Shown here: piece by piece, positions 3,667 through 9,696 of the stretch
How positions within the stretch are numbered: the stretch's first letter is position 1
Layout of the letters: every line of letters begins with the position of its first letter
Assembly (NCBI GenBank): GCA_003139095.1
Contig: PLHW01000075.1
Location: 1 to 64,000, forward strand
Origin: Acidobacteriaceae bacterium
Lineage (GTDB): Bacteria > Acidobacteriota > Terriglobia > Terriglobales > Acidobacteriaceae
Direction of reading: 5' to 3'
DNA: 64,000 nt
Translations under genes and position numbers: made by a program
Notes under the pieces: generated by a model
Told to the model about the DNA's origin: nothing
What the model saw: the letters and a program-made list of their open reading frames with translations, nothing else
Databases searched by the model: none

Positions 3667-4314
3667 CTATTCGTGGAGTACCACATCGAGAAGGGTCTCG
3701 TTGATGCGCAATCCGCCGTTGTACTCGAGGAAACCGAGGTAGCGGAATTTGTTCATGAAGAAACTGATGCGGGCGCGGGTTGTGCCGACCATTTCCGCGA
3801 GGATCTCGTGAGTGATTTGCGGCGCTACAAACGATGCCCGTCTCCCCTTAGTGCCGAAGCGGGCGAGCAATAAGAGCGTGCGGGCAAGACGCTTCTCGGA
3901 GGAATTGAACAACTGGTCGATGAGGTCTTCCTGCACGCGGACGATGTGAGCGAGCAGATAGGCCATGAACATCTCGGAGAAGTCATGTTCCTGGCGAAGG
4001 AGGCGGGTGACGAGGGAGCGGTCGATGCGGGTGATGGTGCAGTCGTTCATAGCGACGGCGGTGGCAAGGCGGCCCTTGTGGCCGGTCAGGCTTTCATGAC
4101 CAAAAAAGTCGCCGGGGCCGAGTATGGCGACGACGGCTTCCTTGCCCCGAGGCGAGGTGACAACCAGTTTGACGCGGCCAGACGCGAGATAGAAAAGAGC
4201 GGAGCCGGGATCTCCCTGGGAATAAATTACGCGCTTACTCTCGCAGCGCGAAATCTTCTTTCCGGTTCCGGGCTGAGATAGGAAGAGTTGAGGATTGAAC
4301 GCAGCGCGCGCCAC
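3667..4314 (-). CDS. Crp/Fnr-family transcriptional regulator
   Basis: A 215-residue regulator. The N-terminal cyclic-nucleotide-binding-type beta roll spans about residues 20-120 (YSQGDPGSALFYLASGRVKL, then GPGDFFGHESL). A dimer helix follows, then a winged helix-turn-helix at about 165-210 (ITHEILAEMVGTTRARIS). It begins with GTG at 4314. Only scattered cysteines are present, so an FNR-type iron-sulfur sensor is unlikely, and the cAMP-contact Arg of E. coli Crp is not clearly present. Effector and targets are unknown. It is transcribed toward the receiver gene and separated from it by about 126 bases. Confidence 0.9.
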   Translation of the reverse strand: MARAAFNPQLFLSQPGTGKKISRCESKRVIYSQGDPGSALFYLASGRVKLVVTSPRGKEAVVAILGPGDFFGHESLTGHKGRLATAVAMNDCTITRIDRSLVTRLLRQEHDFSEMFMAYLLAHIVRVQEDLIDQLFNSSEKRLARTLLLLARFGTKGRRASFVAPQITHEILAEMVGTTRARISFFMNKFRYLGFLEYNGGLRINETLLDVVLHE

Positions 4315-4636
4315 TGATACTGCCTCCAGTTCGGAGTTGTCCGCCCGTCGGAAAACGCGCTTCGATTTACTTCTGAAGCAGAGCAGGCATTCCTAGCAGG
4401 GACCTGAGAATGGCCTGGGAAGGCATGCCGAGCGGGCTCTCCCGCTATGAGCGGCAGCGAACAAATGAAACAGCCGCCACACGACATTATAAGGCAGCGC
4501 GGGCGGCGTAGTGAGAAAGATGCGACGAAGAAAGGTGCGCCGAGGGGGAGAGCGACAGTCCCCTCATCTCGACGCTCGATTATTTCTCTCGCTTACCTTC
4601 TTGCATTACCTCCTTGCCTTAGCTCCGATTCGTTTT
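4315..4636. other. Intergenic region, no gene seen
   Basis: This 322-bp stretch lies upstream of the Crp/Fnr gene and downstream of the baeRF gene, both on the minus strand. It contains one compact hairpin, AGCGGG-CTCT-CCCGCT, at 4431-4446, possibly regulatory for the Crp/Fnr gene. The short ORFs present have no ribosome site or recognisable motif. Confidence 0.5.
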
Positions 4637-5815
4637 CTACGAGGCGACCGCGACCTTTCCGGTGCGGCTTTGGTCGGAACGGAAGCGGAGTAATGCTGCG
4701 ATGTTGCCGGCACGATCTAACTCGGAATGGTCTTTGAGACAGAAGAGCTCGATGTCGCGGCGGATGGCGATGGGGATAATCGCGTCGCAAACGTTTTCGA
4801 GTTCGTGCGTGGCGTGGCCGCACGCGACGCAGGTGGGGACGAGGTGGGCGTTGATGAGGCCGCAGTGGGGACACTCGACGGCGTGGGCGGAATAATTTTC
4901 GGCGAGGAAGATGCTTTGGACCTCACCGGCTTCGAGGGCTTGCAGCACCCGTTTTAGTCCGGTAACGCCGCGACCATTGGCCTTGGCGAAGCCGATAGCT
5001 TCGCTGACCTTTGTTGTGCCGCGATCGCCAAGCCATTTTTTGAGGACGGAGTTGGCGCGATCGCGAATCTCTTCGTTGGAAACGCTGGCGACGTCGGCGG
5101 AGAAGCGACCGATGAGGCGCTGTTTGACGTAGGGGTGGAGGTGAGGCTCGAAGTCAGCCCAATTGACGTCGTGGCAGCCGATGATGAGGCGCTCCCAGGC
5201 GCCGCGCTCGAAGTCGACGCGGAGGCGCTCGGCGACTGCTTTGTAGTGGTGCAAGGCTTCTTCGGCGACGCGGCGCTCGGCGTGCCCGGCGTCGTAGCCG
5301 TTGAATCCGTAATTGGCGCCGCTGCGGGAGAGGAGATGAACGAGGGAGGATTCTTCGCGCAGCTCATCGAGGCGGAGGTCGAAGAAGCGGGCGCGCTGAC
5401 GATCGACGACGGCGACGGCGAGCGTGGGTTGAGCGCCGAGCAAGGCGGCCAACGGTTGGAGTTGAAAACGAGATTGGAGATAGATGCGGGTGGAGCCGAG
5501 GTCGGGAGGAAGCTCGTATTCTTTCCAGAAATTTTGCGCCGAGCAGGCGAACACTGCCCTGCCCCGCGACTGCCCGCGCAGGTTGGAGGCGACATCGAGC
5601 ACACGATCGAGGTCGGCGTGCAGCGATCCGTTCTTGCCTTGTGCGGCGGCGCTTTTGAGCGCCTGCTTTACGACTTCTTTGGCAATGATCGCCTCGCTGC
5701 GGTGCGACCGATCCTGGGGAGGCTCGGGCTGAAAGTAAAAGCTGAGGGCGCATGCGCCTTTGGTTTCATCGGCCTGAAATGCGGCTAATTCACGGATTTC
5801 TTCCCGTGTCATCAT
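4637..5815 (-). CDS. Bacterial archaeo-eukaryotic release-factor-like protein (baeRF) with zinc ribbon
   Basis: A 392-residue protein with the layout of the bacterial eRF1/Pelota-related (baeRF) families. The central domain (about 125-245) has the LAVAVVDRQRARFFDL strand and the GHAERRVAEEALHHYK helix, then RLIIGCHDVNW and RLIGRF. The C-terminal L7Ae/eRF1-domain-3-like part (about 281-392) carries a zinc ribbon, C315-P-H-C318 and C329-V-A-C332. No GGQ peptide-release motif is visible, so classical peptide hydrolysis is not supported; a ribosome-associated or rescue role is an inference. An AAGGAG site precedes the tandem ATG codons at 5815. It lies 15 bases after the HPF-sigma fusion gene, so the two almost certainly form one operon. 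Confidence 0.85.
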   Translation of the reverse strand: MMTREEIRELAAFQADETKGACALSFYFQPEPPQDRSHRSEAIIAKEVVKQALKSAAAQGKNGSLHADLDRVLDVASNLRGQSRGRAVFACSAQNFWKEYELPPDLGSTRIYLQSRFQLQPLAALLGAQPTLAVAVVDRQRARFFDLRLDELREESSLVHLLSRSGANYGFNGYDAGHAERRVAEEALHHYKAVAERLRVDFERGAWERLIIGCHDVNWADFEPHLHPYVKQRLIGRFSADVASVSNEEIRDRANSVLKKWLGDRGTTKVSEAIGFAKANGRGVTGLKRVLQALEAGEVQSIFLAENYSAHAVECPHCGLINAHLVPTCVACGHATHELENVCDAIIPIAIRRDIELFCLKDHSELDRAGNIAALLRFRSDQSRTGKVAVAS

Positions 5816-5830
5816 CTCGGATTCTCCTTA

Positions 5831-6883
5831 TTATTTGGATGCGGAAACGCGAGTCTTGAGGTGGAGATCGTGCTGAAACTCCCGGGCGACGGAAGGCGCT
5901 TTGCGCACACAGTCACGCGCGCGCTCTACCGACTCCCGAACGGCTTCGGGATGGCGGCCGGTGATGGAAGCAATCTCGTTGAGCGAGAAGCCCTCGATGC
6001 CATAGAGAAGAAAGGCCTCGCGGTCGGTGCGGTCGACGCCGCCGAGAGCGGCCTCGATGAGGCGAACCATCTCATCGGAATATGCAGTTTGTTCAGGACT
6101 CTGAACGCGGCGATCGGGGATGACACTTTCGCGCGTCCAGGTCTCATCGGCCTGGTGGAACTGGAGGGTGGATTCGTCGGAGGCTTCGACGTTTTGGCGG
6201 CGACCGCTGTCTTCGAGGTGCACGGGGGATTCGAGCTCATGGAGACGCGCGGTCATTTCATTGATCGATTCGAGGGCGAGGCGGTAAAGCCAAGGCTCGA
6301 GGGCAAGCTTTTCCGGACGATCCTGATCGCCAAGAGCGCGGGCGATGACTTCGTTGACGACCTCGGGTGGGGAGAGACGATCGTCGGGTTGTTCTTCTTC
6401 GGACTGGCGGAAATAAAGTTCGCGATCGACGAAGCGCTCGAGGCGGGCGAGATTGGCGTCAACATAGGTGCCGATGTCATCGGCGGAGATGGTGGGCGCC
6501 TGCACGGAGGCGAGGGTTTGCTCGAAGGGGACGCCGGGCTCGGGAGCGCCCTGGGACTGGCCACGCCAGCGACGCCAGCGATGGCCGGAGCGCAGGACTT
6601 CCTTGTGGCGGGTGATCTGCTGGAGGAGGTCGTCGAAGGCGGCCTTGATGGCGGAGGTTGGGCTGGAGGCCTTTTTTTGCGCCGCGAGCTGACCGGAGGG
6701 AAGGCGCAGATTAAGCGAGACCTCGATGCCTTCGCGCGGCGAATTCTGCTCAAGAAGGACTTTGAGGTGAACCAGTTCTGGCCGGAAGACCTGAAGACGC
6801 TTCCGGATTTTTTCAGACTGGTGGGTGATTTCTTTTTCGATGTCGGGAGTTTTCTGGACCTTGTAACTAACGTGAACGTTCAT
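5831..6883 (-). CDS. HPF/RaiA-like domain fused to sigma-70-like domains
   Basis: A 350-residue protein of unusual design. Residues 1-105 (MNVHVSYKVQKTPDIE, then PREGIEVSLNLRLPSGQL and AIKAAFDDLLQQI) match the S30AE/HPF fold that binds the ribosomal decoding site during hibernation. A linker follows. Residues about 136-215 resemble a diverged sigma region 2 (PPEVVNEVIARAL, then LEPWLYRLALESI). Residues about 265-330 look like sigma region 4 with a helix-turn-helix (SLNEIASITGRHPEAV). The C-terminal dimerisation domain of long HPF is absent. It could report ribosome state to transcription, or use the sigma fold only as a protein-binding module; the sequence cannot decide. It is the first gene of the pair with baeRF. 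Confidence 0.85.
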   Translation of the reverse strand: MNVHVSYKVQKTPDIEKEITHQSEKIRKRLQVFRPELVHLKVLLEQNSPREGIEVSLNLRLPSGQLAAQKKASSPTSAIKAAFDDLLQQITRHKEVLRSGHRWRRWRGQSQGAPEPGVPFEQTLASVQAPTISADDIGTYVDANLARLERFVDRELYFRQSEEEQPDDRLSPPEVVNEVIARALGDQDRPEKLALEPWLYRLALESINEMTARLHELESPVHLEDSGRRQNVEASDESTLQFHQADETWTRESVIPDRRVQSPEQTAYSDEMVRLIEAALGGVDRTDREAFLLYGIEGFSLNEIASITGRHPEAVRESVERARDCVRKAPSVAREFQHDLHLKTRVSASK

Positions 6884-7057
6884 TATCGAGCCTCGAACGC
6901 GGGAGGAGATTCCCGTGAAGCTGCGGTCCTAATGGAGTAATTGTACACCCGGGGGGAAGTGGGGGAATACTGCTAATGAGTCGAGAGCACGGACGGGCGT
7001 GAAAAGGTTATGCCAGGAGCTGACCATCCCCAGTCGGATTGATCGGCTGATCGCGTC

Positions 7058-7076
7058 AACAGTTGGGATAACTGTT
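7058..7076. repeat. Inverted repeat AACAGTT-GGGAT-AACTGTT
   Basis: A perfect 7-bp stem with a 5-base loop lies between the eqolisin gene end and the HPF-sigma gene start. No T-tract follows on either strand. It could be an operator or a weak terminator; function unknown. Confidence 0.35.
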
Positions 7077-7171
7077 TCTAAGCTTTGCGGAACGCAGATC
7101 TCACCCCGAAAAGTCCGCGCTCTCCCACACGAAGGCGAGTGCGCACGCCCTTTATGAGGAAGCTGGGGCGG

Positions 7172-9565
7172 TCACTTCTCTACCACCTGTTTCACCGCTT
7201 TCGAGGTGCTACCGAGGAAGTTCGAGTCACCGGCATAGACCGCTTTTACCGATGTTGTACCCACCTTGAGAGTCGATGTTGTAAAGGTTGCGAAGCCACC
7301 GCTCAGCGTCCCGGCTCCGAGAACCGTTTTACCTTTCATAAACGAGATGGTTTCTCCGTCAGGCGGCGAACCAACGCTGGAAGTGACCACCACGGTAAAG
7401 GTCACCGCCTGTCCATAAGTAGAAGGGTTCGGTGCAGACACGAGCGTGGTCGTGGTCTTGGTCTTTGTCACCCCCACACCTACAACCCCGGCAAGCTTGA
7501 ACACCGTGCCACAACCGGCTCCATAGTCACAGCCAACGTTAGCGCCGCCGAAACTTGTTGTGCCGTACAGGTTGCCCGCGGAGTCTTGGATCAGGCCAGC
7601 ATAGGGGTACGCTCCGTCTGTGCAGTTCGGAGCAGAACAGAAACTGTAGAGCACCGCCTCCCCACCCGTGCTGTTCACCCTGAACACCGTACCTTCACCG
7701 TTAGCACCCCCTTGATATGTAGTACCGTACAGGTTACCCGCAGCGTCCTGGATCAAACCAGCCTCGGGCTTGGCCCCGTCTGTGCAGTTCGGAGCAGAGC
7801 AGAAGCTGTAAAGCACGGTTTCGCGGCCTGTGTCGTCCAACTTGAACACTGTTCCGCATCCATATGCACCAAAGGGGCAATCAGAATTAGGATTGCCACC
7901 GTTAATTGTTGTGCCGTATAAGTTGCCTGCGGCGTCTTGGATTAGACCAGCGGACGGGTAAGTCCCGTCCGTGCAGTTCGGAGCGGAACAGAAGCTGTAG
8001 AGCGCCGTCTCGTGACCCGTGCCGTCCACCTTGAACACTGTGCCACCGCCGCAATTACCGCAACCATCACCAGAGTTTCCGCCGTAGAAGGTAGTGCCGT
8101 ACAGATTGCCCGCACCGTCCTGGATCAGACCAGCCTCGGGGCTGTTCCCATCTAAGCAAGGATTGCCCCCAGAGCAGAAGCTGTGGAGCACTGTCTCGTG
8201 ACCCGTGTTGTCCAGCTTGAACACCGTCCCGCAACAGCCAACGCCCCCGAATGCCGTTGTACCATACAGATTGCCCGCAGCGTCCTGGATCAAACCAGCC
8301 TGTGGGTTCGCCCCGTCTGTGCACTGGCCAACCGAACAGAAGCTATAAAGCACCGTCTCATGGCCCGTGCCGTCCAACTTAAACACTGTGCCACTCTGGA
8401 CGGCTTCACCCTGAAGGCCCCCAAAGTCTGTTGTGCCGTACATGTTGCCCGCATCGTCCTGGATCAGACCAGCCACGGGGTTGTTCCCATCTCCGCAAGG
8501 GTAGCCCCCAGGGCAGAAGCTGTAGAGCACAGTCTCGTGGCCTTTGGTGTCCAACGTGAACACGGTGCCGCAACCATAACCATTAGCGCAACCCGAGTAT
8601 CCCCCCAAATAGGTGGTGCTGTACAGATTACCTGCATCGTCCTGGATCAGGCCAGCGTCGGCGTACCACCCGTCTGTGCAGTTTGGAGCAGAGCAAAAGC
8701 TGTAGAGGGTCGTCAAGTCGGCATAGTCAACCGAGAAGCTCGACTCATCCGCCATTGAAAGCGCAGAGGGAATCGCCTCAGCGGTGCCAGCTTGCGTGCC
8801 GTTCGTGCCGCTACTTATCATCGTGATTGCAACGTTGCTCGCAAACGACCCAATCGGCCCGGTAGCGCCCGCTACGGTCGCGTAATCTTGAGCGAAATTG
8901 ACCTCTCCGAAATTAGCGAAGGGAACAACTTGGCCGGATTTACTCACCGGGTCTTCGGCAATCCATTCGGCAGTTGACCGTTGGGCACCGTTCACTATGG
9001 TGGGCAGGCTACTCCATGTCTGCCCCGCGGCGTCCGTGATAGTTACAGTGAACGTCTCGGTAGCCAAATCAAAGGATACCTCCGCTGAAATATGATCCCC
9101 AGGTGCGACCCCGAACTTCGGTATTTTTTTTTCTACCTTGTCGTGAGGCAGGAACTCGTACCAGGCGTAATAGACGGGTTCTGGCTTACCGCTTTTGCCA
9201 ATCCGACAATCGGACTCGGTTCCAATCTGCTCGAGGGCACCGTTGTTACCGTTTCCATCATCAATACCCACCCAAAAGTTAGAGTACGTGTTATCCGACG
9301 GTGCGCACCTGACAGCCGGGACTATCCAAGAACCCCTAACATCCGTGACGGAGCCGGTCGCGCCAGTGACTTCGTAGCCGCTCCAGTTCCCACTCGTTCC
9401 CGTGCCGTTCGGACGCAGTTGGAAATTCCTGATCGGGCCGTGGCGGTGGCGATGTGTCTCCGCGCTAACCCGGGACGAGGTCGGCGCATTCTGAACCTGC
9501 GCGCCCGCTTGTCCAACGAAGGCGAACAACGACAACAGCGGAATCAGTGTGAAGGTACACTTCAT
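7172..9565 (-). CDS. Secreted G1 (eqolisin-type) glutamic peptidase with GloVer-type repeats and Ig-like domain
   Basis: The ATG at 9565 is preferred: it has a GGGGGAG site just upstream and begins a signal peptide (MKCTFTLIPLLSLFAFVGQA). An in-frame extension to 9649 lacks both. The 797-residue product has three parts. First, a glutamic peptidase domain (about 45-280): NWSGYEV, candidate catalytic Gln in ALEQIGTESDC and Glu in TAEWIAEDP, the Q/E pair of the eqolisin family. Second, about eight repeats of 50-65 residues with YSFCSAPNCTDG, AGLIQDAAGNLYGTT and GTVFKLD, as in GloVer-type repeats. Third, a C-terminal Ig-like domain (TTTTLVSAPNPSTYGQAVTF, ending AVYAGDSNFLGS). An extracellular acid protease with a repeat stalk is the likely form. 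Confidence 0.88.
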   Translation of the reverse strand: MKCTFTLIPLLSLFAFVGQAGAQVQNAPTSSRVSAETHRHRHGPIRNFQLRPNGTGTSGNWSGYEVTGATGSVTDVRGSWIVPAVRCAPSDNTYSNFWVGIDDGNGNNGALEQIGTESDCRIGKSGKPEPVYYAWYEFLPHDKVEKKIPKFGVAPGDHISAEVSFDLATETFTVTITDAAGQTWSSLPTIVNGAQRSTAEWIAEDPVSKSGQVVPFANFGEVNFAQDYATVAGATGPIGSFASNVAITMISSGTNGTQAGTAEAIPSALSMADESSFSVDYADLTTLYSFCSAPNCTDGWYADAGLIQDDAGNLYSTTYLGGYSGCANGYGCGTVFTLDTKGHETVLYSFCPGGYPCGDGNNPVAGLIQDDAGNMYGTTDFGGLQGEAVQSGTVFKLDGTGHETVLYSFCSVGQCTDGANPQAGLIQDAAGNLYGTTAFGGVGCCGTVFKLDNTGHETVLHSFCSGGNPCLDGNSPEAGLIQDGAGNLYGTTFYGGNSGDGCGNCGGGTVFKVDGTGHETALYSFCSAPNCTDGTYPSAGLIQDAAGNLYGTTINGGNPNSDCPFGAYGCGTVFKLDDTGRETVLYSFCSAPNCTDGAKPEAGLIQDAAGNLYGTTYQGGANGEGTVFRVNSTGGEAVLYSFCSAPNCTDGAYPYAGLIQDSAGNLYGTTSFGGANVGCDYGAGCGTVFKLAGVVGVGVTKTKTTTTLVSAPNPSTYGQAVTFTVVVTSSVGSPPDGETISFMKGKTVLGAGTLSGGFATFTTSTLKVGTTSVKAVYAGDSNFLGSTSKAVKQVVEK

Positions 9566-9696
9566 GACGCTCCCCCAGTTTGAGACTTCAACCTTCTTGA
9601 GCGGCTCTTCGCCGACTGTGTTAAGCCGGAATTTCCTTGGCGGCCTCAAGACCCGGCAATTGTCCTCCTCGCTCCCCGGCGCGTCAATGTGGCCTC

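Follow-up and report, generated by a model that had tools for sequence, protein, structure and literature searches.

A family of probable ribosome hibernation factors fused to a sigma-like module in Acidobacteriota, with members in a transmissible stress-tolerance island

Here we describe a family of proteins in which an HPF/RaiA-type ribosome hibernation domain is joined, in one reading frame, to a module derived from a sigma factor. The member from which the analysis started, P0001 (350 aa), is encoded at positions 5831..6883 (-) of a 64,000-nucleotide stretch of DNA, referred to below as the window (Acidobacteriaceae bacterium, assembly GCA_003139095.1, contig PLHW01000075.1, positions 1-64,000 of the forward strand), and is followed on the same strand by the gene for P0002, a protein resembling Balon. 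We consider it reasonably probable, from the sequence evidence laid out below, that P0001 is a ribosome hibernation factor carrying a sigma mimic that does not read promoters, and that it is made together with a Balon-type factor. The family also takes in a previously unassigned gene, orf11, of a widely shared, transferable island of heat and chlorine tolerance.

The two halves of P0001 are recognised independently by sequence and by predicted structure. Pfam S30AE, the HPF/RaiA family, matches residues 9-97 (34.9 bits, cut-off 23.7) and Sigma70_r4_2 matches residues 275-324 (32.1 bits, cut-off 25.7); the NCBIfam sigma70-ECF model, for the extracytoplasmic function (ECF) factors, spans residues 175-328 at 38.7 bits, just below its cut-off of 42.9. 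The Pfam scan of P0001 listed no sigma region 2 above the cut-off (the best region 2 score among the scanned members was 19.4 of 24 bits, in the distant Acidobacteriota locus L092), no receiver domain and no C-terminal domain of the long-HPF type. An AlphaFold model built from a 35-sequence alignment, with a mean predicted local distance difference test score (pLDDT) of 72 and a predicted template modelling score of 0.44 that makes the mutual placement of the parts uncertain, consists of an HPF fold (residues 1-106; 6566..6883 (-)), three helices (residues 134-218; 6230..6484 (-)), a low-confidence linker (residues 219-262; 6098..6229 (-)) and four helices (residues 263-328, within a sigma region 4-like domain of residues 263-330; 5894..6097 (-)). 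In a Foldseek comparison with the PDB the first part aligns with HPF/RaiA chains (2rql, 6h4n, 4hei and 8rd8_D) and the remainder with ECF sigma chains over about 200 alignment columns, with template modelling (TM) scores normalised to the target of 0.60-0.66 for SigW, RpoE and CnrH and of about 0.25-0.36 for the remaining ECF chains listed. A sequence-only reading of this stretch had described an HPF-like domain fused to segments resembling sigma regions 2 and 4. That architecture is confirmed, coordinates included: S30AE, Sigma70_r4_2 and, for the neighbouring P0002, baeRF_family10 were recovered by profile searches and both folds by modelling; region 2 fell short of its Pfam cut-off and is identified from the NCBIfam match, the model, Foldseek and the alignment.

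The same reading had allowed that the fusion might be a sequencing error joining two genes. Among 61 genomes, including that of the window, 40 contain a single alignment running from residue 4 or earlier to residue 319 or later of P0001 (counted from the search table), and one more (G049) carries two copies that align in pieces. Some match to P0001 is present in 53 of the 61, those beyond the full-length ones being HPF-only, sigma-4-only or fragmentary, and two named relatives belong to the Acidobacteriota (Terriglobia; Acidobacteriaceae). In eight close pairs the ratio of non-synonymous to synonymous substitution rates (dN/dS) is below 0.2 for the HPF domain, hinge, sigma2, linker and sigma4 segments alike, with the exception of two segments in one pair for which dS is saturated. 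Many Acidobacteriota thus retain the entire fusion, with purifying selection acting on it, and a sequencing error or chance fusion is ruled out. Across the class, 142 of 299 genomes have a match at 1e-10 and 18 of them a single alignment from residue 1 to at least 329 (again a table count), the remainder being mostly HPF-only or sigma-4-only; two overlapping draws from the phylum gave 15 of 396 genomes at 1e-45 and, at 1e-30, 20 of 297, a sigma-half fragment included, and placed members in eight families outside the class.

In sigma factors, a glutamine of region 2.2 and an asparagine of region 2.3 are important for core binding and promoter melting. Both are conserved in the ECF factors of the window's own genome and lost from the fusions: the glutamine is present in 10/10 ECF factors and 0/34 fusions, all of which have Asp or Asn there, and the asparagine in 10/10 and 2/34, respectively. 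The ECF factors compared were drawn from the 18 places in that genome with a sigma region 2 (L074-L081, L083 and L088), setting aside a long housekeeping-type sigma (L073), one judged by reading to be non-ECF (L082), four whose reading frame was wrongly chosen (L084-L087), a divergent sequence (L089) and a fragment (L090). The 34 fusions come from the window's family and family f2, and are the 35 of alignment A1 minus L045 of family f8, which is counted in a wider set of 53 Acidobacteriota members. In that wider set the glutamine site is Asp or Asn in 53/53 and the asparagine is kept in two; in ten members from Pseudomonadota the glutamine site is Asp in nine and Tyr in one, and the asparagine is found in none. 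The charge of the module has changed as well. The mean net charge of the region 2 segment is +4.0 in the ECF factors as against -7.7 in the window's family and -1.5 in f2, and that of region 4 is +2.3 as against -4.0 in both families, while the HPF domain is basic (family mean of about +8).

The operon's own promoter has likewise no ECF character that we could see. An autoregulated ECF promoter was sought upstream of the fusion in the window's genus and family; no ECF-like motif emerged. Instead, 27 of the 28 upstream regions compared in the window's family share the element GGTGTAnAAT at a distance of 52-68 bases from the start codon (L028, the exception, has GGAGTAAAAT), and this element looks like a housekeeping -10. 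In the window it is GGTGTACAAT at 6940..6949 (-). No conserved -35 was seen in the 28 regions, and a consensus promoter scan, which demands a -35, made no call at this element; the exact 11-base form GGGTGTACAAT occurs only once in the 5.5-Mb genome. Because the residues of regions 2.2 and 2.3 are lost, the sigma parts are acidic and the promoter element of the operon is housekeeping-like, a promoter-reading sigma factor is unlikely on this sequence evidence, and with it the suggestion of the sequence-only reading that the fusion couples ribosome state to promoter choice, since the residues concerned with core binding and -10 melting are missing family-wide. The alternative offered alongside it, a sigma fold put to use in binding a partner, agrees well with a fold that is retained while its sigma residues and basic charge are not.

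A second feature pointing in this direction lies between the two sigma parts. Within an acidic stretch of the linker, disordered in the model, is a signature of the form (F/Y/W)(H/Y/F/W)QPD(E/D), represented in P0001 by FHQADE (residues 242-247; 6143-6160 (-)). A slightly looser pattern is found in 22/23 fusions of the window's family and 14/14 outside the class, 36/37 together with f2 and f8 excluded, and in 9/10 Pseudomonadota members, the E. coli copy deviating at one residue. When 3,634 open frames from the loci compared were searched for the strict pattern, 39 carried it, every one of them a fusion. Disorder combined with conservation suggests a binding motif. The sigma half is probably not a working sigma factor and looks like a sigma-derived partner-binding module with a linker signature of its own.

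The Pseudomonadota members were first reached by tblastn with a distant Acidobacteriota member. With P0001 itself as query, tblastn reached Pseudomonadota plasmids, in 25 of 72,556 records (17 covered to at least 80%, best E value 1e-17), and with a Burkholderia member it returned 295 records, 273 of them covered to at least 80%. A homologue (L113) is also carried by the laboratory strain Methylorubrum extorquens AM1. The 25 records do not show the enteric Orf11, the link to which rests on the profile of the fusions and on the search with the Burkholderia member. A profile of 53 Acidobacteriota fusions matches six Pseudomonadota proteins at 1e-35 to 6e-66, and its halves match the same proteins separately, at 4e-6 to 5e-21 for HPF and 1e-24 to 3e-40 for sigma; five Pseudomonadota members were compared with Pfam, where two score above the cut-off for S30AE and, of that pair, one also scores above that for sigma-4. 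The Acinetobacter copy is matched by the full-length profile at 1e-35 and by the sigma half at 1e-24. Among the matches listed, the annotations are hypothetical protein, sigma-70 family, sigma-28, FliA, a few other sigma names or none at all, and plasmid genes filed as sigma-70, sigma-28 or FliA may accordingly not be sigma factors.

The neighbours of these genes encode, depending on the record, Hsp20, FtsH, an ATPase of the AAA family that is annotated as ClpK in Acinetobacter and E. coli, HdeD, thioredoxin or GroES-GroEL-DnaK; two further Pseudomonadota records are nearly without annotation. In Acinetobacter and E. coli the fusion homologue lies between hdeD-GI and trx-GI, the place that orf11 holds in the gene order of the locus of heat resistance (LHR) as given in PMC8290217. 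The Orf11 protein of the transmissible locus of stress tolerance (tLST) is homologous to the fusions over its full length, HPF half, sigma half and linker included, and its gene was found in 152 of 5,426 complete E. coli genomes. PMC8290217 also notes a sigma-24-like factor in a Methylobacillus island, which may be a gene of the fusion family.

The second gene of the window's operon begins 15 bases downstream of the fusion stop codon, after a gap (5816..5830 (-)) that contains the ribosome-binding site AAGGAG. Its product, P0002 (392 aa; 4637..5815 (-)), matches Pfam baeRF_family10 at 72.9 bits, has four zinc-ribbon cysteines that are invariant in 16/16 aligned relatives, and lacks a GGQ motif in both its translation and the alignment; the sequence-only reading had already described it as a zinc-ribbon baeRF without GGQ. 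A profile of the 16 sequences matches Balon (MSMEG_1130; 8v9j) over residues 5-375 at an E value of 6e-11, with archaeal aRF1 next at 8e-11. In an AlphaFold model of P0002 (pLDDT 81) the two best Foldseek matches are the Balon entries 8v9j and 8v9l, with TM scores of 0.75-0.79, followed by aRF1 at 0.49, so that a full-length three-domain fold of the aeRF1 type is shared with Balon, the closest solved relative. Against the named Balon families of NCBIfam, P0002 scores 40.0 of 480, 39 of 320 and 25.6 of 330 bits, and as it lies so far under these cut-offs we call it a Balon-like baeRF family-10 protein and not a member of a named family. Pairings of this kind have precedents: the title of structure 8rd8 describes a ribosome with both Balon and RaiA, an HPF gene adjoining a baeRF gene is reported in PMC6514570, and PMC10901736 states that Balon genes lie most often beside RaiA and that alternative sigma70 factors are also among their operon neighbours. 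It is possible that some of the latter are fusions of the present kind. Of the stress module envisaged for HPF and baeRF, the operon-like pairing therefore stands, with the provisos that the pairing itself was already published and that the fusion often occurs without baeRF.

What surrounds the fusion varies with lineage, and the neighbourhood survey proposed earlier bears out the pairing with baeRF as common in the window's family and rare or absent in f2 and outside the class. Neighbours were counted with two contig-end loci (L023 and L029) and the duplicates L001 and L030-L032 excluded and with L020 counted as having baeRF; the counts are limited by short flanks, and some loci are near-copies or come from one genome. 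In f2 a LysM/SLT lipoprotein gene lies downstream of the fusion in 12/14 loci. Outside the class an aminotransferase gene (labelled from its sequence as dependent on pyridoxal phosphate) lies downstream in 8/14, and an OB/HD nuclease-like gene upstream in 5/14 (L093, L095, L097, L101 and L103; one copy was scanned), its OB-fold and HD domains being those of what we take to be a YhaM-like protein. Staphylococcal YhaM is reported to target the mRNA of a hibernation factor (PMC11347170). A gene for a STAS-domain protein of the anti-anti-sigma type follows the fusion directly in family f73 (L102:3893-4234 and L105:4096-4497). In L092 the order is FtsH (identified by sequence reading), fusion, a 95-aa protein with an HxxxCxxC motif that is similar to anti-sigma factors of the zinc-finger type (17.4 bits, under the cut-off of 22.2) and baeRF, and this locus joins the stress-gene and baeRF settings of the fusion. 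A gene of about 290-330 codons, designated X, lies directly upstream of HPF or the fusion in f2, f8 and f11 (L048:5074-6078, L033:4894-5760 and L053:4410-5375); three members scanned gave nothing above the Pfam cut-offs and one chance-level match, and a search of the window's genome, run without a positive control, did not find it.

The window's genome encodes two further S30AE proteins, a 197-aa long HPF (C10, L050), which adjoins an RpoN-like gene (so labelled by sequence reading), and a 138-aa short HPF (C37, L051). In a tree of HPF domains that used 33/53 fusions and 13/18 short HPFs, the short HPFs are placed among the fusions. This tree, which came from a short search, is rooted on a long branch and leaves 22 of its 45 inner branches open, would suit, if weakly, loss of the sigma half in short HPFs rather than its repeated gain. 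An ancestral arrangement in which HPF and sigma were separate neighbours was sought in 18 short-HPF loci (L048, L049 and L055-L070) and rejected, no open frame there matching the sigma profile.

Between the promoter element and the start codon lies a 56-base leader (6884..6939 (-)) with a predicted hairpin that would pair the GAGG ribosome-binding site with an upstream GCTTC. In 17 of the 28 extracted leaders covariation is weak (both partners differ in 2/11 pairs; term -0.12), too weak for the hairpin to be taken as a proven regulatory RNA, and that candidate was rejected. The sole lead in a Rfam scan of positions 4000-7600 was c-di-GMP-I inside the baeRF gene, at 22.5 of 59 bits and far under its cut-off. 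The operon is followed, on its own strand, by a gene for a CRP/FNR-type regulator (3670-4314 (-)), and upstream of it lies an 825-aa open frame (7172-9649 (-)) with many repeats of the form YSFCSAPNCTDG...GLIQDxAGNLYGTT.

A model that accommodates these features is as follows. The fusion and baeRF genes are probably co-transcribed from the housekeeping-like promoter. The basic N-terminal domain, judging from its family, would sit in the decoding centre and mRNA channel of the 30S subunit of an idle ribosome, and in lineages that have one, the Balon-type factor would occupy that ribosome's A site. The acidic C-terminal half and its linker, ECF-derived and unfit for promoter reading, would form a dock for a protein partner, for which RNA polymerase or an anti-sigma factor is the likeliest candidate and the ribosome itself another. 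Shutdown of the ribosome would thereby be tied to shutdown of transcription or to the freeing of a sigma factor for stress genes. In its most specific form, a family spanning two phyla that physically couples hibernation to transcription, with HPF on the ribosome and the sigma mimic and its QPDE linker on RNA polymerase or an anti-sigma factor, the proposal is a tentative one that we rate as possible and short of probable.

Several observations count against a hibernation factor with a sigma mimic that acts alongside Balon. A baeRF gene lies beside the fusion in 24/29 loci of the window's family and 2/3 of f8, and in 0/14 of f2 and 1/14 outside the class; joint action is therefore not obligatory. 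The linker signature is missing from all 16 fusions of f2 (0/13) and f8 (0/3). When nine other Acidobacteriota fusions were compared with Pfam singly, 9/9 passed the S30AE cut-off and 3/9 that for sigma-4 (L045, L092 and L104), so that the sigma half may drift faster than the HPF half, and relatives that consist of HPF only show it to be dispensable for their role. The anti-sigma-like neighbour was seen at a single locus, where it scores below its cut-off. In Pseudomonadota the HPF half of the Acinetobacter copy is weak (4e-6, with no Pfam S30AE match), and all ten members compared have lost K94, a lysine conserved in HPF. Finally, of 13 gene deletions in E. coli MG1655 lacZ::LHR, PMC8407380 reports seven as making cells less resistant to heat or chlorine, and that of orf11 is not one of them. 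The result speaks against a direct part in acute heat survival; preservation of ribosomes and regrowth are a separate question.

Other functions can be imagined for the same architecture. The fusion could be a genuine ECF-type sigma factor with HPF as its sensor, held by idle ribosomes and released to RNA polymerase during active translation, or the reverse. Its region 4 match, its ECF match over residues 175-328 and its ECF fold over both regions speak for this, and Arg 316, which we take to be a -35 contact, is kept in 16/21 members of the window's family (Lys or Arg occupies the position in 9/10 ECF factors), with relatives annotated as sigma-70 or sigma-28. However, the loss of the glutamine, the near loss of the asparagine and the disappearance of basic character extend to distant members, the recognition helix differs between fusion families, and the operon has a housekeeping-like -10, no visible ECF-like motif and an exact element found once in the genome, all of which make a working sigma factor quite improbable.

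The sigma half could instead be no more than a ribosome-docking or dimerising extension, unrelated to transcription. Long HPF carries its own C-terminal domain, and the sigma half occupies that position; its strong acidity could suit basic ribosomal proteins, an ordinary long HPF is retained in the same genome, and fusions of HPF to other modules exist, such as HibA with its CBS module (PMC13324472). We nevertheless regard this as unlikely, since a sigma2 and sigma4 architecture and a linker signature kept across two phyla imply constraint beyond that on a helical spacer, and anti-sigma-like and STAS neighbours do occur, though rarely. A variant of the sigma-mimic reading itself is a decoy of the PhyR kind, in which the mimic would titrate an anti-sigma factor on release from, or binding to, ribosomes. 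Models of the sigma-like part of PhyR score just below the cut-off on the sigma4 part of P0001 (25.8 of 27 bits) and above it on that of L045 (31.2 bits), the profile of alignment A1 matches the PhyR sigma-like domain 2lfw at 4e-7, and the neighbour in L092 resembles zinc-finger anti-sigma factors. Yet the A1 profile matches true ECF factors better than PhyR (3e-9), there is no receiver domain, and L092 is alone among the loci examined in having such a neighbour; we hold this special case to be rather doubtful.

When cells become idle, their ribosomes and RNA polymerase are silenced together, in E. coli through separate, co-regulated proteins, RMF and Rsd (PMC6904343). If our reading is right, a single protein that combines the hibernation domain with the sigma mimic would be a direct physical link between both shutdowns, by which translation and transcription would be switched off together, or a stress sigma factor freed, within stress-survival operons. 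It would also supply a function for the Orf11 protein of the transmissible stress-tolerance island, left unexplained in the studies of the island consulted here.

The components of this arrangement are familiar: HPF, Balon, the pairing of HPF and baeRF genes, and HPF joined to another module are already known. A literature search that did not extend to supplementary domain or neighbourhood tables found no published account of an HPF-sigma mimic family or of its identity with Orf11. With HPF/RaiA/YfiA proteins, short and long, the fusion shares an S30AE domain above the cut-off, the HPF fold and basic charge, and differs in a C-terminal half that is sigma-derived and in having no long-HPF C-terminal domain listed. 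It has the sigma2 and sigma4 fold with intervening linker of ECF factors, but it has lost their signature residues, is acidic, is joined to HPF and bears a linker signature. PhyR also contains a sigma-like domain without promoter-reading residues, at its N-terminus; the fusion resembles it in this property and in partial matches to PhyR models, and is unlike it in lacking a receiver domain and in placing the sigma part at the C-terminus. Archaeal HibA (PMC13324472) likewise has HPF joined to another module, for a partner or for sensing, which is CBS in HibA and sigma-like here. P0002 is akin to Balon and baeRF family 10 (MSMEG_1130 and Rv2629) in full-length sequence and fold, in the absence of GGQ and in its HPF-gene neighbour, and unlike them in that its scores fall well short of the NCBIfam thresholds set for the Balon families that bear a name. 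The tLST Orf11, finally, belongs to the same family as P0001 by a full-length profile match that includes both the HPF and sigma halves (in the Acinetobacter copy), while being only 17-18% identical to it and linked to clpK, hsp20, yfdX, hdeD, trx and kefB instead of baeRF.

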